Of a stretch of DNA of 37,830 nt, positions 19,458-37,387 are shown one piece after another. Each line of letters begins with the position of its first letter. Position 1 is the stretch's first letter. The notes beneath the pieces are model-generated. The model made no database searches. It was not told the origin of the DNA and was given only the letters and a program-made list of their open reading frames with translations. The position numbers and the translations under genes are program-made. The stretch covers positions 1 to 37,830 of the forward strand of contig NZ_LMMV01000009.1 of NCBI RefSeq assembly GCF_001422405.1, read 5' to 3'. This DNA is from Pseudorhodoferax sp. Leaf267. GTDB lineage: Bacteria > Pseudomonadota > Gammaproteobacteria > Burkholderiales > Burkholderiaceae_C.

Positions 19458-19468
19458 GCGAACCTTTT

Positions 19469-19897
19469 CTATGCAGATTGCGCGTCAACGCCACACAGGC
19501 GGAAGCGAGGTAGCGAGACTTCGGGGGTCACTTCTTCAAAGACGACCTGCACGGCATCGCCGACTTTCGGTACGTCATTGGCAACGCCCACCACGTTGCT
19601 GAAGAGGCGAGGTCCTTCCTCAAGCTGAATCATGGCCACGTTGTACGGGACGTCGTGCTTGAAGGCCGGGTTGTAGACCTGGTGGTAGACGATGTAGGAG
19701 TAGATGGTGCCCCGGCCGCTCAACGTGCACCACTGGTGCTCCAGCGCCAGGCACCTCGGGCACACGTGGCTGATCGGGAAGCGGACATGTGCGCACGCGC
19801 TGCATTGCTGCATCACCAGGTGGCCTTGCCTTGCCGCCTCCCAGAACGGGCGGTTGCTGCCATCGATGCAAGGCAGTGGCTTGAGGTATTCGTTCAT
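19469..19897 (-). CDS. DUF35 zinc-ribbon / OB-fold protein, partner of the thiolase-like protein
   Basis: 142 residues. A rubredoxin-like zinc ribbon with Cys32, Cys35, Cys46 and Cys49 (QCSAC...CPRC) is followed by an OB-fold acyl-CoA-binding domain (LSGRGTIYSYIVYHQVYNPAF, PYNVAMIQLEEGPRLFSNV). Such proteins act as obligate partners of thiolase-like proteins, for example BbsA in benzoylsuccinyl-CoA cleavage and the DUF35 part of ChsH2 with the Ltp2 aldolase. It starts 5 bases after the thiolase-like stop, which supports a stable complex. Whether the complex is a thiolase or an aldolase is open. Confidence 0.9.
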   Translation of the reverse strand: MNEYLKPLPCIDGSNRPFWEAARQGHLVMQQCSACAHVRFPISHVCPRCLALEHQWCTLSGRGTIYSYIVYHQVYNPAFKHDVPYNVAMIQLEEGPRLFSNVVGVANDVPKVGDAVQVVFEEVTPEVSLPRFRLCGVDAQSA

Positions 19898-19902
19898 GGA
19901 AC

Positions 19903-21048
19903 TCAGCCCTTCCTCAAAATGTTGGCATTGGCCGTGTTGAGTTCGCGCCCGCGTCCGGTGACCAGGCAGACTTCGGCGCCCGAGACCTGCCGTGGCCCGC
20001 ATTCGCCACGCATCTGGCGCACACCTTCGACGATGTGCAACCAGCCTTCCATGTAGGACTCCGACAGATTGCCACCGGCCGTGTTGATCGGGAGTTCGCC
20101 GCCGAGGCGGATGCGGCCACCTTCCACGAAAGGGCCAGACTCCCCCACCTTGCAGAAGCCGCCGTGTTCGAACCACAGCAGCACGCTGCTCGTGAAGTTG
20201 TCGTAGAGCTGCGCGACATCAATGTCCCGTGGGCCGACGCCCGCCATGGCGTAAGCATCGTTGACCGCCAGCTTCTGGTGCGGCACATACCACCAGTCCG
20301 GGTTGTCAAGGTTGCGTGTTGTGTAGGCCTGGCCGAACCCTGAGATCAGCACCAGCGGCTGCTTGAGGTCGCGGGCACGCTCACGCGTTGTGACGATCAC
20401 GCAGACGCCGCCATCGGAGATGAGGCAGCAATCGAGCAGATGCAGCGGCTCCACGATCCAGCGCGAGGCCTGGTGGTCGTCGACGGTGATCGGTGTGCGC
20501 ATCACCGCGTTGGGATTGAGCGAGGCGTGGTACCGGCAGGCAACCGCGATCTCGCCGAGCTGACGACTGGTCGTGCCATAGAGCGCCATGTGACGGCTGG
20601 CCGTGATCGCGCTGTTGCCTGCGGCGGCCTGGAAGCCCCAGATGCCCCACGAGTCCCCCCAGCCCGCGGCGCGGTCGAATCGGTAGCCGCCCGTGGCGGC
20701 GGTGTCGCCGAAGACGCAGGCCACATAGTTCGCCATACCCGCATTGACAGCCAGCACTGCCTGCTGGAGCAGGGCCCCGGCGGTGCCGCCACCCATGTTG
20801 AAGGTGCCCGTGAAGCGCGGATCGATGCCCAGGGCCTCGCCCACGCGCAGGTAGTTGAGGGGGCCTTCGGGAGAGGTGGTTCCGGCCATCGTCATGAGGC
20901 CGTCGATCTGGTCCTTGCGCAGCCCTGCGTCGTCGAGCGCGCGCTTGAAGGCCTCGACGGCCAGCGTGAGGGGGGTGGAGCCGGGCAGCCGGCCTTGTGG
21001 CGAGGCGCCGACGCCGACGATGGCTGCCTTGTCGCGAAGAGGGTGCAT
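19903..21048 (-). CDS. Thiolase-fold protein (SCP-x/Ltp2 type) without the nucleophilic Cys
   Basis: 381 residues with both thiolase halves: AIVGVGASPQGRLPG and FNMGGGTAGALLQQAV in the first, AQLYDNFTSSVLLWFEHGGF and GGNLSESYMEGWLHIVEGVRQMRG in the second. In the position where thiolases carry the acyl-accepting Cys (the Cys-x-x-Gly turn), this protein has Gly in GGGTAG. That matches SCP-x/Ltp-type proteins, some of which are acyl-CoA retro-aldolases using tyrosines; tyrosines are present in QLYDNFT and LSESYMEG. It is paired with the DUF35 gene. Cleavage of a C-C bond in a CoA thioester is the likely job. Confidence 0.88.
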   Translation of the reverse strand: MHPLRDKAAIVGVGASPQGRLPGSTPLTLAVEAFKRALDDAGLRKDQIDGLMTMAGTTSPEGPLNYLRVGEALGIDPRFTGTFNMGGGTAGALLQQAVLAVNAGMANYVACVFGDTAATGGYRFDRAAGWGDSWGIWGFQAAAGNSAITASRHMALYGTTSRQLGEIAVACRYHASLNPNAVMRTPITVDDHQASRWIVEPLHLLDCCLISDGGVCVIVTTRERARDLKQPLVLISGFGQAYTTRNLDNPDWWYVPHQKLAVNDAYAMAGVGPRDIDVAQLYDNFTSSVLLWFEHGGFCKVGESGPFVEGGRIRLGGELPINTAGGNLSESYMEGWLHIVEGVRQMRGECGPRQVSGAEVCLVTGRGRELNTANANILRKG

Positions 21049-21076
21049 GTTTTTTCTTTCTCCGTGGTCGTGTGGT

Positions 21077-22306
21077 CTAGCGCAGGACGTCGTCGGCGAG
21101 CAGATCGTCGTACTGCTCGTCGCTCAGGTTCAGGACTTCACGCAAGACCTCTCGCGTGTGTTGCCCGAGCAACGGCGCTGCGCTGCGGACCTGCACGTCG
21201 GTGGTGGAGAAGCGGAACGGCGGCTGGTTGTACAGAGCCGTGCCCATCTCCGGATGGTCCAGGGTTACCCAGTGGCCGCGGTGTGCCAGTTGCGGATCGT
21301 GCTCGACGACGTCGCGCGCGGTCTGGACCACGCCGGCCGCGACACCCAGTGCCTGGAGATTCGCCATGAGGGCTGTCGCGTCGTGCGGTCGCGTCGCCAG
21401 CGTCAGCAGGTCGTCTAGTTCGTCTGCGTGCGCCAGGCGTGCCTCCGCACGGTCCCATCGCGCATCCATGGCCCAGGACGGACTGCCCAACCCGATGCGC
21501 AGTTGGCGCCACCCCTCGTCGTCGCGCACGGCGATGGCGATCCAACGGTCTTCTCCCGCGCAAGGGTAGACACCATGCGGTGCCAGCGCGGCATGGCGAT
21601 TGCCTTGGCGGTGCTGCACACGCCCATTGGCGGTGAGATCCAGCAGCGTCGGGCCAAGCAAGGCGACCGTTGGTTCGACCTGCGCGAGGTCGATGAACTG
21701 GCCCTCTCCCGTGCGGCGCCGATGCCGCAGCGCGGCCAGCAGCGCAAAGGCCGCGTGGCAGGGATTCGGGATGTGGTCCGGATAGTTGGTTCCCGTGCCT
21801 GCCGGTTCGCGGCCGGGCAGACCACTCAGTTCGTGCAGGCCCGTCAAGGACACCATGCTCGCGCCGTAGCCGAGATAGGCGCGTTCGGGCCCTTCCGATC
21901 CCGCCATCGACATGGCGAGATAGACGATGTCCGGCTTCATCTTGCGGACATCGTCGTAGCCGAGCCCGAACTTTTGCATGACGCCGGGCGTGAAGTTGTT
22001 GGAAATGACATCGCTGTCTTCGATCAGTCGTTTCACGAGCGCCAGCGCGCGCGGGTGCTTCATGTCGATCGTGATGCTCCGCTTGCTGGTGTTGCGGTCG
22101 GCGAAGTAGCCGCTGCGGTTCACGCCCGAGACCCCGTCCTTGTAGGGCGGAGCAAGCCGCAGGGAGTCCAGCCGGGCGGCGCTCTCGACCTTGATGACGT
22201 CTGCGCCCATGTCGGCCAGCAACTTCGTGCAGTACGAGCCCGCGCCCAGCCAGCAGAAGTCAAGAACGCGGATGCCGGACAGCGGAAGTCGGGAATCGGA
22301 TTTCAC
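21077..22306 (-). CDS. Family III (CaiB/BaiF) CoA-transferase, second of an overlapping pair
   Basis: 409 residues from a GTG at 22306. The Shine-Dalgarno GAGGTGA (22311-22317) and the normal family start (LSGIRVLDF near residue 9) decide this start against a longer frame. Landmarks are LLADMGADVIKVE, RNTSKRSITIDMKHP, FGLGYDDVRKMKPDIVY and RRRTGEGQFIDLAQVE. The catalytic Asp is probably Asp177 in NYPDHIPNP. The GTG overlaps the stop of the upstream CoA-transferase by 4 bases, so the two should be made in equal amounts. Two-subunit family III CoA-transferases such as BbsEF are the nearest precedent. Confidence 0.9.
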   Translation of the reverse strand: MKSDSRLPLSGIRVLDFCWLGAGSYCTKLLADMGADVIKVESAARLDSLRLAPPYKDGVSGVNRSGYFADRNTSKRSITIDMKHPRALALVKRLIEDSDVISNNFTPGVMQKFGLGYDDVRKMKPDIVYLAMSMAGSEGPERAYLGYGASMVSLTGLHELSGLPGREPAGTGTNYPDHIPNPCHAAFALLAALRHRRRTGEGQFIDLAQVEPTVALLGPTLLDLTANGRVQHRQGNRHAALAPHGVYPCAGEDRWIAIAVRDDEGWRQLRIGLGSPSWAMDARWDRAEARLAHADELDDLLTLATRPHDATALMANLQALGVAAGVVQTARDVVEHDPQLAHRGHWVTLDHPEMGTALYNQPPFRFSTTDVQVRSAAPLLGQHTREVLREVLNLSDEQYDDLLADDVLR

Positions 22307-23541
22307 GGGCTCACCTCGGCAGCGGCGGCAGCGTGGACACCGCGACCCGCTTCGCGCCAGATTTCTTCGTTGTGCTGGCCCAGACGAGGCGCCGGCCGCT
22401 GCACGCGCCATGGCGTGCCGGACAACTTGTAGGGCGCGCCGGGCATGCGCAGCGTGCGGCCTGCCGCGGCACCAGCGACATCGACAAAATGGCCGCGGCT
22501 GCGCAGCTGCGCGCTCTCCAGGATGTCCACGGGCGTGTTGACCGGGGCGATCGGGATCTGGCGTGCCTGGCCTGCGTGGTACAGGCTGGCCTTGGTACGC
22601 GGCGCTGCCCAGGGAAGAAAGATGTCATTGAAGCGCCGCTTTGCCTCGTCCGACTGCAGGTACTCCACCTGCTGCCACTTGGGCAGCAAGAACTCCTCGG
22701 CGCCCACCATGTCTTCGTCGGCGAACCACTTGATGGTGCGCTCCCAAAACCGATTGGCGCCGATGCCGCCTGCCATCAGGAACACATGGCCGTCGCTGCA
22801 GGCGTAGACGCCCGTCCCGGCGAAGCGCTGCTCGCCGGCCCATCGCTTGCGGACCGTGCCCTCCAGGTCATAGAACTGCACGGCGTTCTCCATGGCCAGC
22901 ACGACGGCCTCCTGCATCGAGACATCGATGTGCTCGCCTCGCCCGGTAAGTTCCGCCTGCGTGAGCGCAACCATGGCGGCGACCGCGCCGTACATGTTGG
23001 CGCACAGGATGGCCTGGTCGCCATGCACGCGCATGGGCGCGCTGTCCGCGTATCCACCCAAGGACAGGAAGCCGCCGAGCGCCAAGGCCACGATGTCTTC
23101 GGCCTGGTAGTGCGCGTAGGGACCTGTCTGCCCGAAGGGCGTGATGCTGAGCATCACCAGTCCCGGGCGCAGCTTTGCCAGAGCGCCGTAGTCGAGGCCG
23201 CGCGCCGCCATCGCGCCGGGTACTGCGGTCTCGATCACCAGGTCGCATGAGGTTATCAGCGTGCGCAGACGGTCCTGGTCGTTCGGCGCGTCGAGGTCGA
23301 GTGTGATGCCTCGCTTGCTGGTGTTGTGGTACGCGAAGGCCAGGCTGGCCTCGATGCCCGGGGTGTCATCGAGATAGGGAGGCTGGTGGCGCAAGGCCGA
23401 ACCCTGCGGCGGCTCGACCAGGACCACGTCAGCGCCCAGCTCCGCAAAAAGCTTGCCGGCGTAGTTGCCCATGGGGCCGGACAGATCGAGCACCCGCAGG
23501 CCAGCCAGTGCGTCTCTGGCCTGGCAACTAATAAAGTCCAT
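22303..23541 (-). CDS. Family III (CaiB/BaiF) CoA-transferase, first of an overlapping pair; catalytic Asp doubtful
   Basis: 412 residues from the ATG at 23541, giving MDFISCQARDALAGLRVLDLSG, the usual spacing to the family start. Landmarks are LFAELGADVVLVEPP, YHNTSKRGITLDLD, MLSITPFGQTGPYAHY and GRGEHIDVSMQEAV. In the segment HGDQAILCANMYGAVAAM, counting back from the conserved Ala-Leu puts Ile178 where family members have the catalytic Asp; Asp175 is three residues off. It could therefore be a non-catalytic subunit of a heteromeric enzyme with its overlapping partner. It heads the minus operon, and its start codon lies inside an IclR-like palindrome. Confidence 0.88.
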   Translation of the reverse strand: MDFISCQARDALAGLRVLDLSGPMGNYAGKLFAELGADVVLVEPPQGSALRHQPPYLDDTPGIEASLAFAYHNTSKRGITLDLDAPNDQDRLRTLITSCDLVIETAVPGAMAARGLDYGALAKLRPGLVMLSITPFGQTGPYAHYQAEDIVALALGGFLSLGGYADSAPMRVHGDQAILCANMYGAVAAMVALTQAELTGRGEHIDVSMQEAVVLAMENAVQFYDLEGTVRKRWAGEQRFAGTGVYACSDGHVFLMAGGIGANRFWERTIKWFADEDMVGAEEFLLPKWQQVEYLQSDEAKRRFNDIFLPWAAPRTKASLYHAGQARQIPIAPVNTPVDILESAQLRSRGHFVDVAGAAAGRTLRMPGAPYKLSGTPWRVQRPAPRLGQHNEEIWREAGRGVHAAAAAEVSP

Positions 23542-23549
23542 AATATGGA
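23537..23549. promoter_or_regulatory. IclR-type operator candidate A (TCCA-N5-TGGA)
   Basis: TCCATAATATGGA covers the start codon of the CoA-transferase at 22303-23541. Read on the minus strand, the surrounding 20 bases match site C at 33852-33871 at 18 of 20 positions. Perfect 4-bp arms and the repeated context suggest a specific binding site. Overlap with a start codon would fit repression. The regulator is inferred, probably one of the two IclR proteins. Confidence 0.6.
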
Positions 23550-23657
23550 TTTCTTTAAAATGATGGATTGCACCGAAGTCTAGCGATGATCCTCTTGTCA
23601 CGCAATCTGTCTATTGCTATTCTTGGTTTTGTTGGCAGATACCAATTGCCAATTGAA

Positions 23658-23670
23658 CCCACATAGTGGA
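23658..23670. promoter_or_regulatory. IclR-type operator candidate B (CCCA-N5-TGGA)
   Basis: CCCACATAGTGGA ends 28 bases before the BadI-like ATG at 23699. It shares the run ATAGTGGACT with site C at 33855. A direct repeat CCAATTG-CCAATTG lies just upstream (23642-23655). It is one of four sites fitting YCCA-N5-TGGR in the two divergent intergenic regions. Confidence 0.6.
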
Positions 23671-23698
23671 CTAACATTCAAGCAACCAGGAACCAGCC

Positions 23699-24490
23699 AT
23701 GGCACGCGAATACAAGGACATCCTCGTAGAGCACCGCGATCACGTCGCGCGCATCACCATCAACCGCCCCAAGTCGTACAACGCCTTCACAGGCGACACG
23801 CTCAATGAACTCACGCTGGCTTTCGAGGACGCCGGTGCAGATCCAACTATCGGTGTGGTCGTCCTGACGGGTGCGGGCGACAAGGCCTTTTGCGCGGGCG
23901 GCGACGTCGGCTGGGAGGCCAAGGGCGGCAAGGAGCGAACGCTGCTGGAGCCGTACATGCTCCACGTCACCATCTCGCGCTGCCCGAAGCCGGTGATCGC
24001 ACGCGTGAACGGCTATGCCATCGGTGGTGGCAACCATCTGGCCTATTACTGCGATTTCACGATCGCGTCGGAGAACTCCGTCTTCGGCCAGAACGGCCCG
24101 CGCGTGGGCAGCGTGCCCGCGAGCCCGCTGCCCAGCTACCTGTCGAAGATCGTCGGCCACAAGCGCGCACGCGAGATGTGGATGCTGTGTCGCAGGTACA
24201 CGGCCCAGCAGGCGATGGACATGGGCCTGGTCAACGCGGTCGTGCCCGCTGACCAGCTCGATGCGGAGGTCGATCGCTGGTGCGACGAGTTGCTGAGCGC
24301 ATCCCCCACCGTGCTGCGCGTCATCAAGGCGGCCTTCGTGGCCGAGTTCGAATACATCTTCGGCCACAACGATTCGCACCGCCGCCAGATGGTCGCGCCC
24401 GAATTCTGGTCCACCGAGCAGAAGGAAGGCACGAGCGCATTCGCTGAAAAGCGCAAACCGAACTTCCGTCGCTTCCTCAAGCCGCGCTGA
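23699..24490 (+). CDS. Crotonase-family enzyme, BadI/MenB-like
   Basis: 263 residues, with AGGAA before the ATG. It matches the BadI (2-ketocyclohexanecarboxyl-CoA hydrolase) and MenB (DHNA-CoA synthase) branch: INRPKSYNAF, GAGDKAFCAGGDVG, the oxyanion-hole segment GYAIGGGNHLAYYCDFTIASEN, FGQNGPRVGSV, REMWMLCRRYTAQQAMDMGLVNAVVP and the C-terminal EKRKPNFRRFLK. BadI opens an alicyclic beta-keto ring and MenB closes one by Claisen chemistry. Where both have Asp after the Gly-Ser-x turn, this protein has Pro140, so its substrate or reaction may differ. It heads the plus operon and is followed after 26 bases by a CoA-transferase. Confidence 0.88.
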   Translation: MAREYKDILVEHRDHVARITINRPKSYNAFTGDTLNELTLAFEDAGADPTIGVVVLTGAGDKAFCAGGDVGWEAKGGKERTLLEPYMLHVTISRCPKPVIARVNGYAIGGGNHLAYYCDFTIASENSVFGQNGPRVGSVPASPLPSYLSKIVGHKRAREMWMLCRRYTAQQAMDMGLVNAVVPADQLDAEVDRWCDELLSASPTVLRVIKAAFVAEFEYIFGHNDSHRRQMVAPEFWSTEQKEGTSAFAEKRKPNFRRFLKPR

Positions 24491-24516
24491 ACCTCACTGG
24501 TATCTGGAGACATCGA

Positions 24517-25740
24517 ATGAAAGCACCCCTTTCGCACATCCGTGTGCTCGACCTGAGCCGTCAGTTGGCAGGGCCATGGTCGGCGCAGATGCTGGCCGAC
24601 TTCGGCGCGGACGTCATCAAGGTCGAGCGGCCCAAGGTGGGCGACGACATGCGCCACTACGGACCGCCTTTCGTGAAGGGAGCCGATGGCAAGGAAACGC
24701 GGGAATGCCCGTTCTTTCTCGCCGCAAACCGCAACAAGCGGTCGGTGACGATCGACATCGGCCACCAGGAAGGGCAGGAACTGATTCGGCGCATGGTCGC
24801 GCACTGCGACGTGGTGATCGAGAACTACAAGGTCGGCACGCTGCAACGCTACGGCCTGGGCTACGAGGACTTGAAAAAGATCAAGCCGGACCTCGTGTAC
24901 TGCTCGGTGACGGGTTATGGGCAGGATGGGCCCTACAAGGATCGCGCGGGCTACGACTCCGTCCTGCAGGCCATGAGCGGCATCATGAGCATCACCGGCG
25001 ACCCGGACGATGTTCCCGGCAGTGGCCCGCAGAAGACAGGTATGCCGGTGAGCGACTTCTCGGCGGGGCTGTACGCGACCGTCTCGATGCTCGCGGCCCT
25101 CATGCACCGGGAGCGAACCGGCGAAGGCCAGTACATCGACATTGCGCTGCTGGACACGAGCATGTCGCTGCTGCCGGTCGAAATACTGCGCCACCTCCAG
25201 TTGGGCGAGACGCCCAAGCGGATCGGGCTGAAGAGCCGCAACATGGTGCCCGCGCAGGCCTTCCATTGCGCGGACGGACAACTCGTGCTCGCCGTTGGCA
25301 CCGACGAGCAGTTTCGCAAGCTCATGCAGGGACTCGGACGCCCAGAGCTGGGCACGGATCCACGCTTTGAGACCAATCGCCTGCGCAAGCAGAACCGCGA
25401 CGCGCTCATCCCCATCCTCGATGGACTGTTCATGCAGCAGACCGTCGCGCACTGGGTCGAGACGCTGAGCGCGCGCCAGGTTCCGTGCGGTTCGGTCAAC
25501 GACATCAGCCAGGTATTCAAGGATCCTCACGTTCAGCACCGGGGCATGCGGATCGAGATGAACCACCCGACCATCGGCAACGTGCCCTTGCTGGGCAACC
25601 CGGCGAAGCTCTCTGTCACGCCGCCGTCGTACCGGCGCGCCCCGCCTTTGCTGGGCCAGCACACACGCGAGATCCTGTGCGAGTTCGCCGGCGCCGACGA
25701 TGCCGTACTCGCCAGGCTCGCGAACCAGGAAGTGATCTGA
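24517..25740 (+). CDS. Family III (CaiB/BaiF) CoA-transferase with intact catalytic Asp
   Basis: 407 residues with GGAG before the ATG. All family landmarks are present: HIRVLDLSRQLAGPW at the N-terminus, MLADFGADVIKVERP, NRNKRSVTIDI, YGLGYEDLKKIKPDLVYCSVTGYGQ and RTGEGQYIDIALLD. Asp180 in PVSDFSAGLYA aligns with the aspartate that forms the acyl-anhydride intermediate (Asp169 in formyl-CoA transferase). It moves CoA from a donor thioester to a carboxylic acid in the cytoplasm. Its place between the BadI-like and MmgE/PrpD genes suggests it activates the substrate of this operon. The acid is unknown. Confidence 0.93.
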   Translation: MKAPLSHIRVLDLSRQLAGPWSAQMLADFGADVIKVERPKVGDDMRHYGPPFVKGADGKETRECPFFLAANRNKRSVTIDIGHQEGQELIRRMVAHCDVVIENYKVGTLQRYGLGYEDLKKIKPDLVYCSVTGYGQDGPYKDRAGYDSVLQAMSGIMSITGDPDDVPGSGPQKTGMPVSDFSAGLYATVSMLAALMHRERTGEGQYIDIALLDTSMSLLPVEILRHLQLGETPKRIGLKSRNMVPAQAFHCADGQLVLAVGTDEQFRKLMQGLGRPELGTDPRFETNRLRKQNRDALIPILDGLFMQQTVAHWVETLSARQVPCGSVNDISQVFKDPHVQHRGMRIEMNHPTIGNVPLLGNPAKLSVTPPSYRRAPPLLGQHTREILCEFAGADDAVLARLANQEVI

Positions 25741-25745
25741 GCGCC

Positions 25746-27101
25746 ATGGCGAACGCCACGCTCCCTGCGGACTCCACGCGCCTGCTCGCGCGCTGGGTGT
25801 CGTCGTTGCGCTTCGAAGATCTTCCTGGCGAGGTCGTCACGGCGGCGCGGTTGCAGATCATCGACACGCTGGCGGTGGCATGGGCCGGCTCGAAAGCCGA
25901 GTCGGTCAACCCGGTGCGCACTGCAATCTCCGACATCGGGGGTACGCCGCAGGCCCGTGTCTGGTGCTTCGGCGACCGGTTGCCCGCCACGCAGGCGGCG
26001 TTCGTGAACGGCATGCTCGCTGCGGCCCTGGACTTCGACACGCTCCATGACCGCGCCAATGTCCACAGCGACGGCGTGGTGCTCCCTGCCGTGTTCGCGT
26101 TGGCAGAGGCCAGGGATGCATCTGGCAGCCAGATGATCGCGGCACTCGTCGCGGGCGGCGAATTGATGGTGCGTCTGGGCCTGGCCGCCCAAAGCGCGCC
26201 CGGATGGTACTACTCCTCCGTGTTCGGTGCATTCGGCGCCGCGGCAGCAGCGTCCAATCTCCTTGGCCTGAGCGAGACGCAGACGCTGCATGCGCTGGGG
26301 ATCGCGCTGAGCCAGGCTGCAGGAACACAACAGCCCTTGCTGGAGCGCAGCCTCACGAAGCGCCTTCAGACTGCCTATGCGGCCCGGCAGGGCGTGGAGG
26401 CAGCGCTCCTGGCTGAAGCCGGCGTGACCGGGCCGACCCAGCCTCTGGAAGGTGTCGCCGGAATCGGTCGCCTGTATGCGCCGCTGGACGCAAGCCTGCT
26501 GGAAGGACTGGGTCAGCGCTATGCGTCGCTGGGCATGACCTTCAAGAAGTACGCGAGCTGCATGTGCAACCATGCCCCCATCGAGGCGGCGTTGCGGCTG
26601 CGGGCCGACACCAAGGTGCAGCCGGCCGAACTGGACCGCGTGCAGGTCACGATCTCGCCGTTCATGCACCGGCTCACCGGCGCACCGTTCACGCCGGGTG
26701 ACAGCCCGCAAGTCAGCGCGCAGTTCAACGTGCGCTTTTCGGTCGCGAGTGCACTGTTGCGCGGGCGGTTCGAGACACGCGATATCGCACCGGATGCCGT
26801 TCTCGACAGCCGCGTGCTGGATCTGGCGTCGCGGGTCGAGGTGCGTGTGGACGAGAGTGCGGGAAGGTTCGGCCCTGCCTACCTCCAGATCCGTCGGCGC
26901 GACGGCCGCGAGCACACCATCCATGTGCAAGCGCCGCCAGGAACTCCTGAGGATCCGCTGACCGAAGCGGAAATTCTTGAGAAGACGCACAAGGCCTTCA
27001 CACAAGCGGCGAACCCGCTGAGCGATCACGCGGCGGGCGCATTGATACAAGCCCTGCAGTCGCTGGAGCGCTGGCCCCATGTCCGCGCCCTGCCGCACTG
27101 A
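25746..27101 (+). CDS. MmgE/PrpD family protein
   Basis: 451 residues starting at the ATG 5 bases after the CoA-transferase stop. N-terminal helical domain: WVSSLRFEDLPGEVVTAARLQIIDTLAVAWAG, then GMLAAALDFDTLHDRANVHSDGVVLPAVFALAE. The central TFKKYASCMCNHAPIEAAL is a variant of the usual KxxPxCxxxH motif. The C-terminal lid domain ends with LTEAEILEKTHKAF. The best-known members are 2-methylcitrate dehydratase and cis-aconitate decarboxylase. Many homologues in Burkholderiales catabolic clusters are unassigned, so a dehydratase or isomerase role is only a guess. Confidence 0.9.
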   Translation: MANATLPADSTRLLARWVSSLRFEDLPGEVVTAARLQIIDTLAVAWAGSKAESVNPVRTAISDIGGTPQARVWCFGDRLPATQAAFVNGMLAAALDFDTLHDRANVHSDGVVLPAVFALAEARDASGSQMIAALVAGGELMVRLGLAAQSAPGWYYSSVFGAFGAAAAASNLLGLSETQTLHALGIALSQAAGTQQPLLERSLTKRLQTAYAARQGVEAALLAEAGVTGPTQPLEGVAGIGRLYAPLDASLLEGLGQRYASLGMTFKKYASCMCNHAPIEAALRLRADTKVQPAELDRVQVTISPFMHRLTGAPFTPGDSPQVSAQFNVRFSVASALLRGRFETRDIAPDAVLDSRVLDLASRVEVRVDESAGRFGPAYLQIRRRDGREHTIHVQAPPGTPEDPLTEAEILEKTHKAFTQAANPLSDHAAGALIQALQSLERWPHVRALPH

Positions 27102-27136
27102 CCATCCCCCCAACACCACCGCCTCTGGAGACAAAC

Positions 27137-28156
27137 ATGAAAACCAAACAACCGTTCGCGCTGCCGAGCCGCCAACTGTCCACGCTCGTGCGTTCGCTCG
27201 CCGCGGCGCTGGGGCTAGCGTCCACCCTGGCCGCGACGCAGGCCGCGGCGCAGGCGACCTATCCGAATCGCCCGATCCGGATGGTCGTTGCCTTTGCCGC
27301 TGGCGGCTCGACCGACGTCGTCGCCCGGGTCATCGGCCAGAAGCTCTCCGAAGGGCTCGGCGTGCCCGTTGTCGTCGACAACCGGGCCGGCGCCAACGGC
27401 ACGGTCGGAAGCGAGGTCGTGGCGAAGTCTGCGCCCGATGGATACACGATCATGATGGGCGAGGTGGGAAGTCTGGCGATGGCACCGGGCCTCTATCCGA
27501 AGCTGCCGTACGAACCGACCCGGGACTTTGCGCCGGTGACGCTGGTCGCCCGCACGCCTCTGCTGGCGACGGTCAAGGTGGACAGCCCGATCAAGTCGCT
27601 CGCCGAACTGATCGCCTATGCCAAGAGCCACCCAGGCAAGCTGAACTTTCCCTCCTCCGGCGCCGGCGGGCCAAACCACCTTGCTGGCGAGCTGTTCAAC
27701 CTGCAGGCGAACGTCAAGACCCAGCACGTGGCCTACAAAGGCGGCGGTCCGGCCGTCCTGTCGCTGGCGAGTGGAGAGACCGACTTCGGCTTGCTGAGCC
27801 GTGTGACGATCGACTCCCAGTTGCAGTCGGGGCGCCTCAAGCCGCTGGCCGTTGCGAGCGAGCAGCGCCTCGCCAACATGCCCAACACGCCCACCTTTGC
27901 CGAAGCGGGCCTGCCGGGGTTCACCGCCGAGACCTGGTTCATGGTCGTCGCCCCCGCGGGCACGCCGCCACCGGTCATCACCCGCCTGAACGCCGAGATT
28001 GTCAAGATTCTTCCTGCGCCCGAGATGGTGGACCGTTTCGCGAGCATGGGCGCGATCGGTGTGGGCAATTCTCCAGAGGTTGCGGGCGCGTTCCTGAAGG
28101 CCGAACTCGCCAAATGGACGCGGGTGAGCAAGGCAGCCAGCATCACTCTCGACTGA
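27137..28156 (+). CDS. Bug-family (TctC-like) periplasmic binding protein
   Basis: 339 residues with GGAG before the ATG. A signal peptide of about 38 residues ends AATQAAAQA. The mature protein has the Bug signature YPNRPIRMVVAFAAGGSTDVVARVIGQKLSE, NRAGANGTVGSEVVAKSAPDGYT, FPSSGAGGPNHLAGELF and VAYKGGGPAVLSL. These proteins bind carboxylates in the periplasm, as the soluble part of TctABC transporters or as orphan sensors. No tctA or tctB gene is in the window, so it must use a distant membrane component or act in signalling. Its place in a CoA-transferase operon suggests the ligand is the operon's acid. Confidence 0.92.
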   Translation: MKTKQPFALPSRQLSTLVRSLAAALGLASTLAATQAAAQATYPNRPIRMVVAFAAGGSTDVVARVIGQKLSEGLGVPVVVDNRAGANGTVGSEVVAKSAPDGYTIMMGEVGSLAMAPGLYPKLPYEPTRDFAPVTLVARTPLLATVKVDSPIKSLAELIAYAKSHPGKLNFPSSGAGGPNHLAGELFNLQANVKTQHVAYKGGGPAVLSLASGETDFGLLSRVTIDSQLQSGRLKPLAVASEQRLANMPNTPTFAEAGLPGFTAETWFMVVAPAGTPPPVITRLNAEIVKILPAPEMVDRFASMGAIGVGNSPEVAGAFLKAELAKWTRVSKAASITLD

Positions 28157-28165
28157 TTTACAAGG

Positions 28166-29020
28166 GTGCCACCGACGCCCAGCAACGATGGCGCCCCGAG
28201 GGCGCGTCATCGCACGCCAAACCCGGATCGCAACGCGACGGATCCGTCCGCTGCGATGCCGGCCGGGACGCAGAGCATCCAGAGGGTTGTCAGGATCCTG
28301 CGCGAACTCGGCGCGCGCAACCGCGAGGGCGTGCGGCTTTCCGATCTGGTCCAGTCGCTCAAGCTGGAGCAGCCCACTGTTCACCGCATGTTGCGCTCTC
28401 TCGTGGCAGAGTCGATTGCCACGCAGGATCCTGCAACGAAACGCTACTTTCTCGGGCAGGCGGTCTATGAGCTGGGGCTCGCCGCGGGCCATCGGTTCGG
28501 ACTGAAGTCGCTTTGCGAACCCATCCTGAGCAGTCTGTCGACGCGAACGAAGGACACCGCGTTTCTCGCGGTGAGAAGTGGCGACGACTCGGTGTGCCTG
28601 GACCGGCGTGAAGGGGACTCGCCCGTCAAGATCCTGACACTGGCTGTGGGCGACAGGCGCCCCCTCGGTGTGGGTGCCAGCGGCATGGCCCTACTTTCCG
28701 CCTATCCCGAAGATGAAGTACGGCGCGCCATCGAGGCGAACAGTTCACGCCTGGCGAAGTACGGAGAGAACGACATCGCCAACCTCGTCGCACGCGTGCT
28801 GGAGGCGAAGGACCGCGGCTATTCCCTGCGCGACCTGCCTGGCTATGAGGGCATTCGTGCGATCGGCATGCCCGTGTTGGACCTGCAGGGCCGCCCCATC
28901 TGTGCGCTGAGCATCTCCACACTGGTGGGCCGCCTGACGGGCGAGAACTTCGACGACAGACGCAGGCTGTTGCAGAAGCACTGTGAAGCCATCACGCGTT
29001 TGACGCCGGATGCACGCTGA
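28166..29020 (+). CDS. IclR-family regulator (copy 1)
   Basis: 284 residues from a GTG at 28166, 9 bases after the binding-protein stop. An ATG at 28256, giving MPAGTQSIQR, is a credible alternative, because the paralogue is unrelated to this protein before PAGTQSIQRVV. The winged HTH includes IQRVVRILRELGARNREGVRLSDLVQSLKLEQPTVHRMLRSL. The effector domain includes YFLGQAVYELGLAAGHRF, VCLDRREGDSPVKI, GVGASGMALLSAYPEDE and GYSLRDLPGYEGIRAIGMPV. It is the last gene of the plus operon, so it is probably autoregulated. It is the candidate to bind the YCCA-N5-TGGR sites. Confidence 0.9.
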   Translation: MPPTPSNDGAPRARHRTPNPDRNATDPSAAMPAGTQSIQRVVRILRELGARNREGVRLSDLVQSLKLEQPTVHRMLRSLVAESIATQDPATKRYFLGQAVYELGLAAGHRFGLKSLCEPILSSLSTRTKDTAFLAVRSGDDSVCLDRREGDSPVKILTLAVGDRRPLGVGASGMALLSAYPEDEVRRAIEANSSRLAKYGENDIANLVARVLEAKDRGYSLRDLPGYEGIRAIGMPVLDLQGRPICALSISTLVGRLTGENFDDRRRLLQKHCEAITRLTPDAR

Positions 29021-29023
29021 GCC

Positions 29024-29065
29024 GATCGCTTCTTCCCGTCCTTCACAGGACGGGAAGAAGCGATC
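29024..29065. terminator. Perfect 19-bp hairpin between convergent operons
   Basis: GATCGCTTCTTCCCGTCCT (29024-29042) and its exact complement (29047-29065) enclose a 4-base loop, TCAC. It begins 4 bases after the IclR stop and lies before the 3' end of the convergent GMC gene. There is no strong T-run on either side, so it may act as a transcript-end stabiliser or a bidirectional terminator without a classic U tract. Confidence 0.85.
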
Positions 29066-29104
29066 ACTTTACATTCGATTCAGCCTCAGGCTTTTCGACA
29101 GGTA

Positions 29105-30811
29105 CTAGGCCGGGCTGCTGGCCAGGATCAGGTCAGCCGCGATGTCCGCGATGGCCAGAACCGGCGCGTGGGTGTTGCTGCATGGCAGCGTCGGCATGAC
29201 CGACGCATCGACGACGCGCAGGCGGTCCACACCGCGCACGCGCAGGGCTTCGTCCACAGGTGCCGTGGACTCCTTTCCCATGGCGCAGGTGCCGGCATAG
29301 TGGAAGTAGGTCACGAAGGTCTTGCGCACAAAGTCAGCGATGTCCGCCTTGTTGGCACCGCGCAGGCTGAATTGCTCCGAACGGATGTCGGAGAAGGCCC
29401 TGGCATTGCCGATCTCGATACCGAGTTGCATACCCGCCACGTACGTATCGATGTCTGCCTGTTCGGCAAGATAGTTCGGGTCCACCAGCAGGGGGGAATC
29501 CGGGTCCGTGCCCGTTAGGCGCACGCTTCCACGGCTCTTTGCCTTCATCAGGCCCGGCATGATCGCGTAGCCCTCGTCGAACTTGATGTCCGCAGAACCG
29601 AACACGTTCTGCCGGCCCAGAATCTGAATGTCGGGTCCGGGCAGCGATGCGCTTGTCTTCAGGTACGTGGTACCGGAGACGCCAGTGCCTTCGAAGGCCG
29701 GCATCTTGGTCTTGGAACGGAAGTAGATGCGAGTCAGAACGTGGTCCTGCAGATTGGCGCCGATTTCCGGCCGATCCACGATGACGGGAATGCCGAGCTT
29801 GCGCAGATGCTCGGCGGGCCCTACCCCTGACAGCATCAGGATCTTGGGCGAGTGGATGGCGCCTGCACACAGCACCACTTCCTTGGCTGCAGCGATGCGG
29901 CGCTCCTGTCCGCCGACCGTCGCGAACACCCCCCGGCACGTTCCGTTCGCGATGTCGAGTCGCCACACCGGGGTGTCGGTGAGCAGGGTGAGACTGCTGC
30001 GCGACAGCGCCGGCATCAAGAAGCAGTGCGCAGCCGAGACGCGACGACCGTTCTCGATGTTGTGGTCCGTCTGGCTCGCCCCCAACATGCTCGCGCTGCC
30101 GTTGATGTTCGACTTCTCCGGAATACCCTGCTCCTTCGACGCCTCGATGACGGCTCGGGTGACCGGGTGCGAGAGCGCTGTGGTCTGGGTCGGGATCGGC
30201 CCCGATCCGCCGCGGTATTGGCCTTCACCTCCCGCATACCGCTCAAGTTTCTTGAAGCGTCCAGCGATCGCATCGAATCCCCAGTTCGGGCCAGCCTTGG
30301 CTTCCCATTCGTCGAAGTCGGCCTTGTCGCCGCGCAGCCACATCATGGCGTTGATGCTCGACCCGCCTCCGATCACCTTGCCGACGGGAACAGGGATGAC
30401 GCGGTTGCCTAGGTGCGCCATCGGTACCGTCTTGTGGCACCAGTCGGTGTCCGAACCGATGTTGGTCGGCCATCCCAGCGGCCCGGAGATCTTCTCTTGC
30501 TCAATGTTCGTGCCGCCGCCCTCGATCACCAGCACGCTTGCACGTCCTCCCTGGGACAGGCGATGCGCCATCAAGCAACCGGCCGCGCCAGCGCCGACGA
30601 CGATGTAGTCGTATTCGCCTTTGAGGTTGGCGTTCTGGGCGGATTGGTTGGCATGCGCGAACGTGGCGTGCTCGGCCATGTCGTAGGCGGTGGCCGTTGC
30701 TATCCCCAGGGATGCAAGCCCCCGGAAGAACGTGCGACGGCTGATTCGGCCGCGGTAGGCCGCATCGATCAATGAGTTGATTGCTTCGCCGCGGTACAGG
30801 TTGCGATCCAT
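29105..30811 (-). CDS. GMC-family FAD oxidoreductase with Tat signal
   Basis: 568 residues from the ATG at 30811, preceded by GGAG. The N-terminus carries a twin-arginine motif SRRTFFRGLASLG at about residues 24-36, so export is expected, which is uncommon for this family. After it come the FAD loop YDYIVVGAGAAGCLMAHRL, the GKVIGGGSSINAMMWLRG signature, LCAGAIHSPKILMLSGVGP, the catalytic His region YFHYAGTCAMG and NTHAPVLAIADIAADL at the C-terminus. It oxidises an alcohol; the substrate is unknown. It lies 194 bases downstream of the IorB-like gene on the same strand. No cytochrome c partner is nearby. Confidence 0.92.
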   Translation of the reverse strand: MDRNLYRGEAINSLIDAAYRGRISRRTFFRGLASLGIATATAYDMAEHATFAHANQSAQNANLKGEYDYIVVGAGAAGCLMAHRLSQGGRASVLVIEGGGTNIEQEKISGPLGWPTNIGSDTDWCHKTVPMAHLGNRVIPVPVGKVIGGGSSINAMMWLRGDKADFDEWEAKAGPNWGFDAIAGRFKKLERYAGGEGQYRGGSGPIPTQTTALSHPVTRAVIEASKEQGIPEKSNINGSASMLGASQTDHNIENGRRVSAAHCFLMPALSRSSLTLLTDTPVWRLDIANGTCRGVFATVGGQERRIAAAKEVVLCAGAIHSPKILMLSGVGPAEHLRKLGIPVIVDRPEIGANLQDHVLTRIYFRSKTKMPAFEGTGVSGTTYLKTSASLPGPDIQILGRQNVFGSADIKFDEGYAIMPGLMKAKSRGSVRLTGTDPDSPLLVDPNYLAEQADIDTYVAGMQLGIEIGNARAFSDIRSEQFSLRGANKADIADFVRKTFVTYFHYAGTCAMGKESTAPVDEALRVRGVDRLRVVDASVMPTLPCSNTHAPVLAIADIAADLILASSPA

Positions 30812-31005
30812 TCTCTTGTCTCCTCGTTGCTCAGTCAGTGGTTGGGTGCGGCATCGCCGCAGTTTGAAACTCGGACGGGCATGGCTGCGCCTCGTGCGGG
30901 CGCAGCCAGTGCCCGCAGGGTCGTTCGTTTGAAGGTTGTCGCTCGTCTCCTCGGTGCTTGGATGTCGGGTTGCGCAGATGCCGCCCGTCGAGAGCGCGGG
31001 TGGAG

Positions 31006-33315
31006 CTAGCCTCGCGCCAATTGGTCGCCGATGGGCAGTTGGCGAATTCGTTTGCCTGTGGCTGCGAAGATCGCGTTGCACAGGGCCGGGGCCACAGGTG
31101 GCAGTCCGGGCTCCCCTACGCCGCCAGGCGCAACGGAATGGTCCGAAGGTGAAAGGTGGACCCGGATTTCGCGCGGCGCTTCGGCATGCCGCGCCAATGG
31201 ATGGTCATGAAAGTTGCTCTGCACGACGCTTCCGTCCTTGAACGAGATCTGTCCGTGCATCGCCAGGCCCAAGCCCATGATCACCGACCCTTCAAGCTGC
31301 GACGTGATGCGTTCAGGGTTCACATGCGGACCGCAGTCGAGGGCAATGTCGACATCGACGATGCGCAGAAGGCCCTTGTTGTCGATCTCGACTTCGACGA
31401 CCGCCGCGCTGTAGCTCACGAACGAGTTGGCCATCGCAATGCCCATTCCGCGGCCTTTGGGAAGTTTTCTGCCCCAGCGCGCGCCGGCAGCGGCCAGTTC
31501 GATGACGCGTCGCATGCGTCCGGTGTCGATGGGGTAGCGCTCTGGCGACTCGCCGTAGTTGATCTGGTCGGACAGGGTCCGCGGGTCAATGCGTCGATCC
31601 GGACCGAGCAGTTCGACCAGGTAGTCCTTGGGATCGCGCCCCGCTGCGACGGCCAACTCATGCACGAAGCACTGCACGGCGAACGCGTGCGGAATGTTGT
31701 AGACCGCCCGGAACCACCCGATGCGCGCATGGGCGGCAACTTCCGGCGACTCGACCCGCACGTTCGGGATCGCATACGGGACGTTGATGGCGGTCATGCC
31801 CATCTCCAGCGGGCGCAGCATCCTGTTCTCGAGCGAGAAGGTCGCGCCAATGGACGGCGCTGCGGAGCGGTGCAGCCAGGCGACAGGTTTGCCTGTGCTG
31901 TCCAGTGCCGCCTCCAGGCGCTCGACGGCCACTGCGTGGTAGTAGCCGTGCCGCAGGTCGTCGTCGCGGGTCCACTGCAGCTTGACGGGTGTGCCACCCA
32001 TGGCCTTGGACACCAGCGCGGCCTCCGAGACGAAGTCGGACTTCGACTTGCGGCCGAAGCCTCCGCCCAGCAAGGTGACGTTCATCGTCACCTGCTCGGG
32101 CTTGAAGCCCAAGTGGGCTGCAACGTTGTCCCGCGCTCCTTGCGGCGCCTGAACTGGCGCCCAGACTTCGCAGTGGCCATCGACAATGCGTGCCGTTGCG
32201 ACAGGTGGTTCCATCGTCGCATGCGCAAGATGGGGCAGGTAGTATTCCGCCTCGACACGCCGCGTGGCCCGTGCGAGTGCCGCCATCGTGTCGCCATCGT
32301 CGCGCACCGCCTTCGACGGCGTGCGCGCTGCCTTTTCCAGCGTGAGCCTGTACGCTTCGGAGTCGTACGTGCCGTTGGGGCCACTGTCCCAATCCAGCTC
32401 CAGGACTTCACGGCCCTTCATCGCCGCCCAGGTGTTGCTTGCCACCACGGCAACACCGCCCAGTGGATGGTGGGCCGCAGGCAGCGGAGTGCTCTTGAGC
32501 TCCACCACGCGGATGACGCCCGGCACCTGCAGCGTCTTCTCGGCCTTGAAGGACTTCAAACGCCCGCCCACGACGGGAGGGCGGGCGACCACGGCGTACA
32601 CCATCCCTGGCAAGCGGGTATCGATGCCATACGCTGCCCGGCCTCGGACGATGTCGGGGCCGTCGATGAGGGGAATGTCTGCTTTTCCGATGTAGCGGAA
32701 CTGCGCCGGGGCTTTGAGCGTGAGCGTGCTCCGGTCCGGAATCGGCAGACTCGCCGCTGCAGCAGCGACCTCGCCGAACCCAAGTTTTCTGCCCGAAGCC
32801 TGATGGACGAGCTCATGGTTCAGGGCTCGCACTTCTGTCGCCGGCACTCCCCAACGGGCAGCGGCAGCGGCCTGCAGCATCGTTCGGGCCGCCGCGCCCA
32901 CACGTCGCAATGGTTCCGTCGAATGCCGCATGCTGCGAGAGCCGTCGGTATTTTGGTTGCCGTATTTCTTCTCATCGCCAGGCGCCTGGATCACCCGAAC
33001 CCTGGTGAGGTCGGCTTCCAGCTCTTCGGCCACGACCATCGGGATGCTCGTGCGCACGCCCTGACCCATCTCCTGGCGATGGCAAACCACCGTGACTGTG
33101 CCATCCGTGGCGATGCTCACGAACACCAGCGGGTTGTCAACCAGGCCGCCGGGCATGCGGTCACCGCCGTACTTCGGCGGTGTCGGGGTTGCGGCTTGCG
33201 CGTAAACCTCGCCGGTATGTGCGACGGCCAAGGCCAGCCCGGACGCGAGACCTTTGAGCAGCCGACGCCGCGCGTTATTCAGAACAGCGTCTGTGGCAGT
33301 CGAAACGTGCGTCAT
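31006..33315 (-). CDS. Molybdenum-cofactor subunit of an IorB-type hydroxylase/aldehyde dehydrogenase
   Basis: 769 residues from the ATG at 33315, which overlaps the stop of the iron-sulphur gene by 4 bases. [20 protein letters not shown] is a Tat-type signal. The molybdenum cofactor domains follow the single-chain IorB order: [47 protein letters not shown] and [13 protein letters not shown], where Glu735 is the catalytic base. Members include isoquinoline 1-oxidoreductase and membrane-bound aldehyde dehydrogenases that use a cytochrome c subunit. None is encoded here, so the electron acceptor is open. The substrate is unknown. Confidence 0.92.
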
Positions 33316-33785
33316 GCCTTGCTCCCCTTTTGTGCAGCGACCTGTTTGATGGCAGCACGTATTCGGGTGTAGGTGCCACACCGGCACAGATTGCCGTTCA
33401 TGGCTTCGTCGATCTCGCCATCGCTCGGGTTCGGCACCCGCTTGAGGAGTGCCACGGCGGCCATGATCTGCCCACCTTGGCAGTAGCCGCACTGCGGCAC
33501 ACGAAGCGCAAGCCATGCAGCTTGCACTGCGGCCCCCAACGGGTCCGTTTCGACGTGCTCGATCGTGGACACCAGCATCCCAGTGGCGGCGGAGACGGGC
33601 GTGATGCAGGAGCGCGTTGGCTCTCCATTCAGGTGAATGGTGCAGGAGCCGCACAGGCCAGCCCCACAGCCGAACTTGGTGCCGACCATCCCGAGTTCGT
33701 CACGCAGAACCCAAAGCAGTGGCGTGTCCGACGAAGCGCTGACCTGCAAGGTACGGCCGTTGATGTTCAGATTCGTTGATGTCAT
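33312..33785 (-). CDS. [2Fe-2S] subunit of the IorAB-type molybdenum hydroxylase
   Basis: 157 residues. Four Cys in [15 protein letters not shown] and RSC bind the ferredoxin-type cluster. Four more in [11 protein letters not shown] and GNLCRCGTY bind the helical-domain cluster. Length and lack of its own export signal fit the small IorA-type subunit, exported with its partner. The gene overlaps the large subunit by 4 bases. It is the first gene of the minus run, 70 bases from operator candidate C. Confidence 0.93.
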
Positions 33786-33854
33786 GTCTCCCTTTCTCCG
33801 CTTGGCGCAAATGCACTGCCTTCAACCCACCAATCATCAAATCTCAGATATAAA

Positions 33855-33867
33855 TCCATATAGTGGA
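33855..33867. promoter_or_regulatory. IclR-type operator candidate C (TCCA-N5-TGGA)
   Basis: TCCATATAGTGGA lies 70 bases upstream of the iron-sulphur subunit start. The 20 bases AAATCCATATAGTGGACTTT (33852-33871) match the minus-strand context of site A at 18 of 20 positions, although the downstream genes are unrelated. Confidence 0.62.
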
Positions 33868-33965
33868 CTTTCCGAAAAATGTCTTGGTGCCAGGTAAGTA
33901 TTGATACTTTCAAATGATCCATCAACGATCTGACCGCCAAAATCACTTAAAAATTTCTACGATAG

Positions 33966-33978
33966 CCCACAATATGGG
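33966..33978. promoter_or_regulatory. IclR-type operator candidate D (CCCA-N5-TGGG)
   Basis: CCCACAATATGGG has perfect 4-bp arms and is centred 111 bases from site C, close to the 121 bases between sites A and B. It lies on the IclR side of the divergent region and may serve autoregulation. Confidence 0.5.
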
Positions 33979-34228: not shown

Positions 34229-35044
34229 ATGTCAGTGCAAGATCGCAAGGCTGTAGGGCCGCTCGCTGCGGCCCCGGCTGGAACCCAGAGCATCCAACGG
34301 GTGGTGTTGATCCTTCGGGAACTTGCCGCGCGAAACCGTGAGGGTGCGCGTCTGTCCGACATGGTGCAATCCCTTGGACTCGAGCAGCCCACAGTGCATC
34401 GCATGCTGCGCTCGTTGGTTGCCGAGTCGATGGCGACGCAGGATCCCGAGTCCAAGCGGTACTTTCTCGGTCAGGCGGTTTACGAGTTGGGACTCGTTGC
34501 AGGGCATCGATTCGGCCTCAAAGCGCTGTGCGAGCCCCTTCTCAGCAGCCTGTCCTCTTTGACCCGGGACACCACGTTTCTGTTGGTGCGCAGTGGCGAC
34601 GAATCGGTCTGCCTTGACAGGCGTGAGGGCGATTCGCCGATCAAGATCTTCACCGTGGCACTGGGGGATCGTCGCCCGCTCGGCGTGGGGGCGAGCGGCA
34701 TGGCTCTGTTGTCGGCATATCCTGAAGAGGAGGTCCGGCGTGTGATCTTGGCCAATGCCGGGCGGCTGGCGAACTATGGTGAACGCGATCCTGCGGCTTT
34801 GATCGCGCGGGTACTGGAGGCCAAGGAACGCGGCTATTCGCTGCGGGACCTGCCAGGCTATGAAGGGATACGTGCAATTGGGATGCCCGTCGTGGATGCA
34901 GATGGCAATCCTGTTTGCGCGTTGAGCGTGTCGACCCTCGTCGGCCGGCTCACTGGGCAGAACTTCGAAGAGCGCCATCGCCTGCTCCGCGAGCACTGTG
35001 ATGCAGTGGCCCGCGTCACGACCGGCCGGGTGGGCGCTGCTTGA
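34229..35044 (+). CDS. IclR-family regulator (copy 2)
   Basis: 271 residues from the ATG at 34229 (MSVQDRKAVG), chosen because similarity to the other IclR protein begins soon after, at PAGTQSIQRVV; upstream codons lack similarity. HTH: LILRELAARNREGARLSDMVQSLGLEQPTVHRMLRSL. Effector domain: YFLGQAVYELGLVAGHRF, VCLDRREGDSPIKI and GYSLRDLPGYEGIRAIGMPV. It is nearly collinear with the protein at 28166 over the whole length, so the two are recent paralogues and may share operators or form mixed complexes. It is divergent from the IorAB-type genes. Confidence 0.92.
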   Translation: MSVQDRKAVGPLAAAPAGTQSIQRVVLILRELAARNREGARLSDMVQSLGLEQPTVHRMLRSLVAESMATQDPESKRYFLGQAVYELGLVAGHRFGLKALCEPLLSSLSSLTRDTTFLLVRSGDESVCLDRREGDSPIKIFTVALGDRRPLGVGASGMALLSAYPEEEVRRVILANAGRLANYGERDPAALIARVLEAKERGYSLRDLPGYEGIRAIGMPVVDADGNPVCALSVSTLVGRLTGQNFEERHRLLREHCDAVARVTTGRVGAA

Positions 35045-36368: not shown

Positions 36369-36488
36369 GGTTGATGTCCTTGGTGGCGCAGGGACAAGTT
36401 TGCCGGCCATTGCGCAGTTTGACTAGGTAATGAATTCTTACTACATTCATAAGTTACATTAATCAGCTAATGCGCATTTAAAGGCGGC

Positions 36489-37387
<899 letters not shown>

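Follow-up and report, generated by a model that had tools for sequence, protein, structure and literature searches.

Paired palindromic sites of conserved spacing and a putative IclR-type regulon in a catabolic gene region of Pseudorhodoferax sp. Leaf267

Four 13-bp palindromic sites (A to D) occur as two pairs, one in each of two control regions about 10 kb apart, in a 37,830-nucleotide stretch of Pseudorhodoferax sp. Leaf267 DNA (contig NZ_LMMV01000009.1, positions 1 to 37,830) that is referred to here in its full length as the window (Table 1). We propose, with a probability of about 0.7, that these sites are operators of two related IclR-type proteins, IclR1 and IclR2, which would control a CoA-thioester gene block and an oxidoreductase gene block as one regulon by means of paired operators that bracket promoters and are perhaps looped. 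The positions of the sites, their rarity, conservation, pairing and spacing were obtained by computation. What is new is the presence of palindrome pairs whose spacing has been conserved while the intervening DNA has changed. This combination of kept sites, kept spacing and lost spacer sequence is a footprint by which a distance constraint can be told apart from the ordinary conservation of sequence.

Table 1. Sites, predicted promoters and genes discussed in the text, with their positions in the window.
Feature	Position	Strand	Remarks
Site A, TCCATAATATGGA	23537..23549	.	overlies the likely ATG (23541-23539) of the left CoA-transferase gene
Site B, CCCACATAGTGGA	23658..23670	.	right-gene ATG 28 bases on; 121 bp from A
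Site C, TCCATATAGTGGA	33855..33867	.	upstream of the IorA-type gene
Site D, CCCACAATATGGG	33966..33978	.	111 bp from C; likely IclR2 ATG 251 bases on
Predicted back-to-back promoters, A-B interval	23590..23625 (approximate)	.	rightward TTGTCA-17-TATTCT, leftward TTGCGT-17-TAGACT
Family III CoA-transferase-like gene	22303..23541	-	runs leftward from A
Rest of leftward block: second CoA-transferase, thiolase-like, OB-fold protein, short-chain dehydrogenase	18678..22411	-	presumed operon membership
Rightward block: BadI/MenB-like hydratase, CoA-transferase, MmgE/PrpD protein, TctC-type binding protein	23699..28156	+	presumed operon membership
IclR1	28226..29020	+	listed ORF begins at 28166; final gene in the rightward CoA block
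IorA-type iron-sulfur and IorB-type molybdopterin subunits	31006..33785	-	then GMC oxidoreductase, 29105-31081
IclR2	34229..35044	+	ORF listed from 34088

The preliminary description of this DNA, made from the letters alone, had placed four sites of the form YCCA-N5-TGGR at these positions, and a motif scan of the window recovers all of them there. The centre distances it gave, 121 bp from A to B and 111 bp from C to D, follow from the confirmed coordinates, and the likeness it noted between A and C (18 of 20 bases) is borne out when C is compared with the reverse complement of A. Both pairs do lie between divergently read open reading frames (ORFs), as had been described, but A overlaps the likely ATG of the left gene and is not strictly intergenic. 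The statement that the motif is found in just two intergenic regions is not borne out: the window contains nine loose matches (2.38 expected, standard deviation 1.54; maximum of 100 shuffles 7), and the five others, at 6815, 16593, 17366, 21345 and 26437, are all within ORFs. The match at 16593 fits the symmetrical form YCCAYANTRTGGR as well, but sits inside a PQQ-dehydrogenase-type ORF. Read by eye, an inverted repeat, TTGGCA-N9-TGCCAA, is also present between A and B, at 23632-23652, directly before B.

The genome-wide scan proposed in the preliminary description has a divided outcome. The motif as first written is frequent, with 758 genomic matches where the reversed pattern has 343, and was dropped as a genome-wide test for that reason. 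The AT-centred refined form common to A to D, YCCAYAWWRTGGR, which was chosen after sight of the four window sites and fitted to them, is infrequent: it occurs at seven distinct places in the 6,530,331 bases of the genome, four of which are A to D (controls, 1 and 0). At one of the remaining places, C3:5560, the motif forms the stem of a terminator-like hairpin located between two genes, which we take to be a ribosomal-protein gene and a peroxiredoxin gene. The palindrome core forms such a hairpin stem beside the same peroxiredoxin-type gene in Pseudacidovorax also (positions 1501-1513 of both L010, from the own genome, and L086); this match is a spurious hit of the motif scan, yet a conserved one. 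At another place, C1:1444162 (position 1501 of locus L009), the match stops 8 bases short of a possible ATG that would open a large ORF; this site may be genuine and may mark a further member of the regulon. The seventh place is C27:169196. A further pattern, YCCAYNNNRTGGR, was tried in four genomes and dropped, as it gave 78-140 matches per genome against 46-89 for the reversed controls, and in one genome (G212) the control, 89, exceeded the count, 81.

The CoA-block pair is separated by exactly 121 bp in all three of the genomes compared (the window, G212 and Pseudacidovorax sp. RU35E, G786). In each of them the left-gene ATG falls on position 9 of site A, and the distance from B to the start of the right gene is 28 (window), 21 and 28 bases. 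The right gene itself differs, being a hydratase gene in the window and, by sequence likeness, a gene for a TctC-type protein in G212 and Pseudacidovorax. The second site of the pair matches at 12/13 positions in the window and at 11/13 in G212 (L030, 12110 and 12231) and Pseudacidovorax (L089, 1380 and 1501); sites of at least 11/13 occur about 4 times per 10,000 positions of shuffled sequence. Across the three genomes, identity is 0.85-1.00 for site A and 0.77-0.92 for site B, while the 108-base spacer, aligned without gaps, has identities of 0.27, 0.23 and 0.31 in the three comparisons against a mean of 0.25-0.26 when shifted. Putative paired operators with kept spacing are thereby established at the level of sequence comparison. 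The IorAB pair is 111 bp apart in the window and 108 bp apart in Pseudacidovorax (spacer identity 0.27-0.39 over four shifts), and because of this difference its spacing is, to judge from these two genomes, less strict than that of the CoA block. Both IorAB-side sites are kept in Pseudacidovorax, where the listed ORF past the D-like site is TonB-receptor-like, lies on the IorAB strand and ends towards the site; a mechanical antisense ORF is also there. Since the listed neighbour is on the same strand as IorAB, the D-like site in that genome is not explained by a divergent gene.

The refined motif occurs at four places in the whole Pseudacidovorax genome. C18:51958 lies upstream of IorAB and C18:60272 covers the start of the CoA-transferase gene; the third place precedes a different IclR gene, and the fourth is the hairpin. 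The cluster sites are 8.3 kb apart there, compared with 10.3 kb from A to C in the window. In G212 the motif is present at three places, one of them over a CoA-transferase start codon, and in Verticiella at two (reversed-motif controls, 2 and 1), both directly upstream of IclR genes, one of which is divergent from a CoA-transferase gene. A second Verticiella CoA-transferase gene (L092, 60%) has no site at its start. Relatives of the CoA-transferase were found in 5 of 399 genomes of the order, the own genome included. The comparison of orthologous clusters, which the preliminary description had also suggested, has two sides: the motif is kept at both Pseudacidovorax blocks and at the G212 CoA block, but none of the five more distant foreign CoA-transferase loci (from four genomes) has a site of at least 12/13 or a pair, which would argue against a universal operator for that gene. 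Among the loci with IclR relatives of 42-50% identity (L033-L048), 0 of 16 have a site of at least 12/13; one of them, L033, has two 11/13 sites, 103 bp apart.

Promoters were predicted in six regions with a home-made sigma-70 scorer, the candidates being chosen from the three best matches per strand, and they fall between sites that are 108-121 bp apart. For the leftward candidates, the downstream operator is 36.5, 37.5, 33.5, 38.5 and 37.5 bp away from the -10 centre in five of the six regions and 29.5 bp away in Verticiella. Rightward candidates lie at 43.5, 40.5, 44.5 and 45.5 bp in four regions, and in the other two none of the three best matches is at a comparable place. Some promoter matches that overlap an operator outscored those between the sites. 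Because the predicted promoter place shifts by 3-4 bp while the total stays at 121 bp, these candidates suggest that the distance between the operators is itself under selection.

IclR1 and IclR2 had been called near-identical, which overstates their identity of 79-81%. They have a common recognition helix, LEQPTVHRMLRSLVAES; their identity is 88% in the first 66 residues compared, where the helix-turn-helix lies, and 77% in the 184 that follow. IclR1 scores above the Pfam gathering threshold for both HTH_IclR and IclR_C; IclR2 is placed in the family by its identity to IclR1 and by matches to IclR-family NCBIfam models. The best NCBIfam matches of the two proteins are to the BhcR and PcaR/PcaU/PobR subfamilies, yet all are below the cut-offs (BhcR equivalog, 109.1 bits for IclR2 and 111.7 for IclR1 against 350; PcaR/PcaU/PobR, 88 and 94.4 bits against 284.75). 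In a tree of 36 rows, IclR1 and IclR2 are sisters (100/99), followed by L027 of Pseudacidovorax and then L030 of G212; with these two outside the pair, the duplication looks younger than the split from the Pseudacidovorax and G212 lineages. Orthologues of the pair were found in 2 of 399 genomes of the family at E 1e-70 (own genome included), in 1 of 328 genomes of a second draw from the family at 1e-60 (G212), in 4 of 6 genomes of the genus at 1e-48 (own included; the others at 39-42%) and in 27 of 399 genomes of the order at 1e-48 (own included). A search of genome contigs gave three loci, of which L029 (28%) was left out, and a search of plasmid records gave 20, each below 60% identity.

The suggestion that both blocks belong to a single regulon is well supported by these comparisons. 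A single regulon accounts most simply for the finding that both blocks, each with the motif, occur in Pseudacidovorax together with one close IclR protein (five matches at E 1e-20, the best at 64% identity and the next at 39%). As for the looping or paired repression that had been thought possible, paired repression is strengthened because the pair spacing is kept, while looping is compatible with it. In the mechanism that we infer, in which the binding protein, repression rather than activation, the effector and bridging are each conjectural, IclR1 and IclR2, duplicates that share their recognition helix, would bind the four palindromes. Each control region would have two operators 108-121 bp apart that flank the predicted promoters: one would closely follow a promoter (A lies on the likely start codon), and the other would be at the opposite side. 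Repressor bound at A and B would obstruct transcription, and a tetramer, if it joins two bound dimers, would shut the promoters in a short GalR-like loop; a pathway metabolite would release the repressor.

Bridging of the paired sites is possible; the fixed spacing, the predicted bracketing and the tetramers stated for the IclR family in PMC8222616 speak for it. At 10.5 bp per turn, 121, 111 and 108 bp are 11.5, 10.6 and 10.3 turns; 121 and 111 bp have a common phase (0.52 and 0.57 turn), near half-integral, and 108 bp is at 0.29, so that helical phasing does not clearly favour looping. Several findings count against the proposed mechanism: the lifting of gal repression at 108 and 118 bp described below, the scattered phases of other groups, the choice of promoters from the three best matches per strand with some operator-overlapping ones scoring higher, the lack of a site of at least 12/13 in all 16 loci L033-L048, the distant CoA-transferase loci without a pair, the second sites of 11/13 in G212 and Pseudacidovorax, and the distance of D from the IclR2 start.

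Similar pairs are present beyond this cluster. When the 260 bases preceding each of 34 other IclR genes are scanned, a site of at least 11/13 is present in 18 regions (2.64 on average in shuffles, at most 7), and two sites 60-130 bp apart are present in 13 (0.05 on average in shuffles, at most 1). These regions are not independent, the 13 positives forming nine groups by our own sorting; L083 and L084 entered through the motif search, the same genes being found later by protein similarity, and without them the count is 11 of 32. A wider set of 54 rows represents 50 distinct loci, given four own-genome duplicates (L105/L019, L108/L018, L111/L020, L115/L021), and has 13 loci with pairs and 0 with reversed-motif pairs. 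IclR1, IclR2, L027 and L030 are excluded from both pair counts. In a different IclR orthogroup (L052, L056, L064, L083) the pair is spaced at exactly 86 bp in all four genomes seen, with spacer identities of 0.26-0.55. Another orthogroup has 124 bp in two genomes, and its spacer, at an identity of 0.56, is not lost. The pair spacings of other groups scatter over helical phases. It may be, although we regard this extension as tentative and rather doubtful, that a wide range of IclR-type regulators form a class of short-loop repressors distinct from LacI/GalR. Such proteins would bridge distant paired operators on either side of promoters, and within each orthogroup the spacing would be fixed to the base pair (121 bp for three genomes, 86 bp for four and 124 bp for two) while the intervening DNA could change freely.

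Other readings of the four sites deserve attention. Within the same regulon, each operator could act independently, A on the leftward gene, B on the rightward gene, C on IorAB and D on IclR2, in which case the distances would mirror the places of divergent promoters and nothing would be bridged. This is a serious contender whose chances we put somewhat short of even. The divergent layout of both window regions agrees with it, as do the position of A on one start codon and of B 21-28 bases before the other in three of three genomes, and the helical phase is not common to the pairs. The exact 121 bp in three genomes despite a spacer at chance identity is harder to reconcile with independent operators, and so is the persistence of the D-like site in Pseudacidovorax, where the listed neighbour is not divergent. 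The paired sites could alternatively serve an activator of the PcaU/PobR kind. Activators occur in the IclR family, and IclR1 and IclR2 both match the PcaR/PcaU/PobR model weakly, but with A over a start codon and B between a predicted promoter and its gene, the arrangement suits blocking, and activation is unlikely.

We think it quite unlikely that another regulator, be it a different IclR protein or a member of another family, owns the sites and that IclR1 and IclR2 act elsewhere. Refined-motif matches in the own genome cluster in the control regions next to IclR1 and IclR2, and a Verticiella site directly precedes an IclR gene; in favour of another regulator are the motif type, which is common to the IclR family according to PMC8222616, and the 39% IclR protein of Pseudacidovorax, which has a near-identical motif upstream. 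That the palindromes arose by chance in AT-rich spacers is scarcely credible. The refined pattern was fitted to these sites, and the two control regions are AT-richer than the window (G+C 0.40 and 0.505 against 0.651), yet base shuffles of the same regions give a mean of 0.0004 refined matches (maximum 1) where four are observed, and the sites are conserved at the same places in other genomes.

If A to D are operators of IclR1 and IclR2, an uncharacterised catabolic island gains a regulon and a directly testable operator. The CoA-transferases, the BadI/MenB-like hydratase, the thiolase-type protein, the MmgE/PrpD protein and the TctC-type binding protein suggest that the products of the block take up an organic acid, perhaps cyclic, and break it down as a CoA-thioester. 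The GMC and molybdopterin oxidoreductases would carry out the prior oxidation of an alcohol or aldehyde, the substrates being presumptive in both cases. The Ior names are those of the preliminary description; in a profile search the genes match xanthine-dehydrogenase-like models. Among all NCBIfam matches listed for the region, none reaches its cut-off. Beyond IclR2, at 35338-36500 (minus strand), a gene that is presumably alpha/beta-hydrolase-like, and for which a Pfam scan gave no match, is broken by in-frame stops relative to a full-length relative (L027, 7675-8808) and looks like a pseudogene; an intact copy is present in Pseudacidovorax.

The sites resemble the group 1 operators in a survey of the IclR family (Suvorova and Gelfand 2021, PMC8222616), for which the accessible text gives the consensus GKTYCRYW3-4RYGRAMC with the palindrome core TYCRY-W3-RYGRA. 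Sites A to D agree with the core consensus TYCRYW3RYGRA, matching it at 13, 12, 13 and 11 of 13 positions, and match the full 17-mer at 14, 13, 14 and 13 of 17. Group 1 site centres are reported there at about -22 and between -3 and +1 relative to the gene start, roughly where B and A are found, and the regulons include many CoA-thioester and transport genes, as does the window. The systems differ in spacing: that text stresses tandem sites with centres 18-22 bp apart, three and four turns being over-represented too, whereas the pairs here are 73-124 bp apart (121 and 111 bp in the window); the survey data may include long pairs as well. A search of open-licence full texts found no paper on an IclR-type DNA loop, as judged from titles and the opening lines of abstracts, a result that applies to those texts and makes no claim of absence from print. 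The E. coli gal operators OE and OI, bound by GalR, are 113 bp apart, and the accessible part of PMC4693257 reports that repression is lifted at 108 and 118 bp. The two gal operators bracket the promoters and one of them is within the first gene; here the predicted promoters would be bracketed likewise, with A over the likely start codon. In gal, however, the protein is of the LacI/GalR type and acts with HU, and looping and phase dependence come from experiment, whereas here the protein would be of the IclR type and the loop is proposed. If IclR proteins do bridge such pairs, the family would have a further way of repressing genes, in addition to the closely spaced tandem sites emphasised in PMC8222616.
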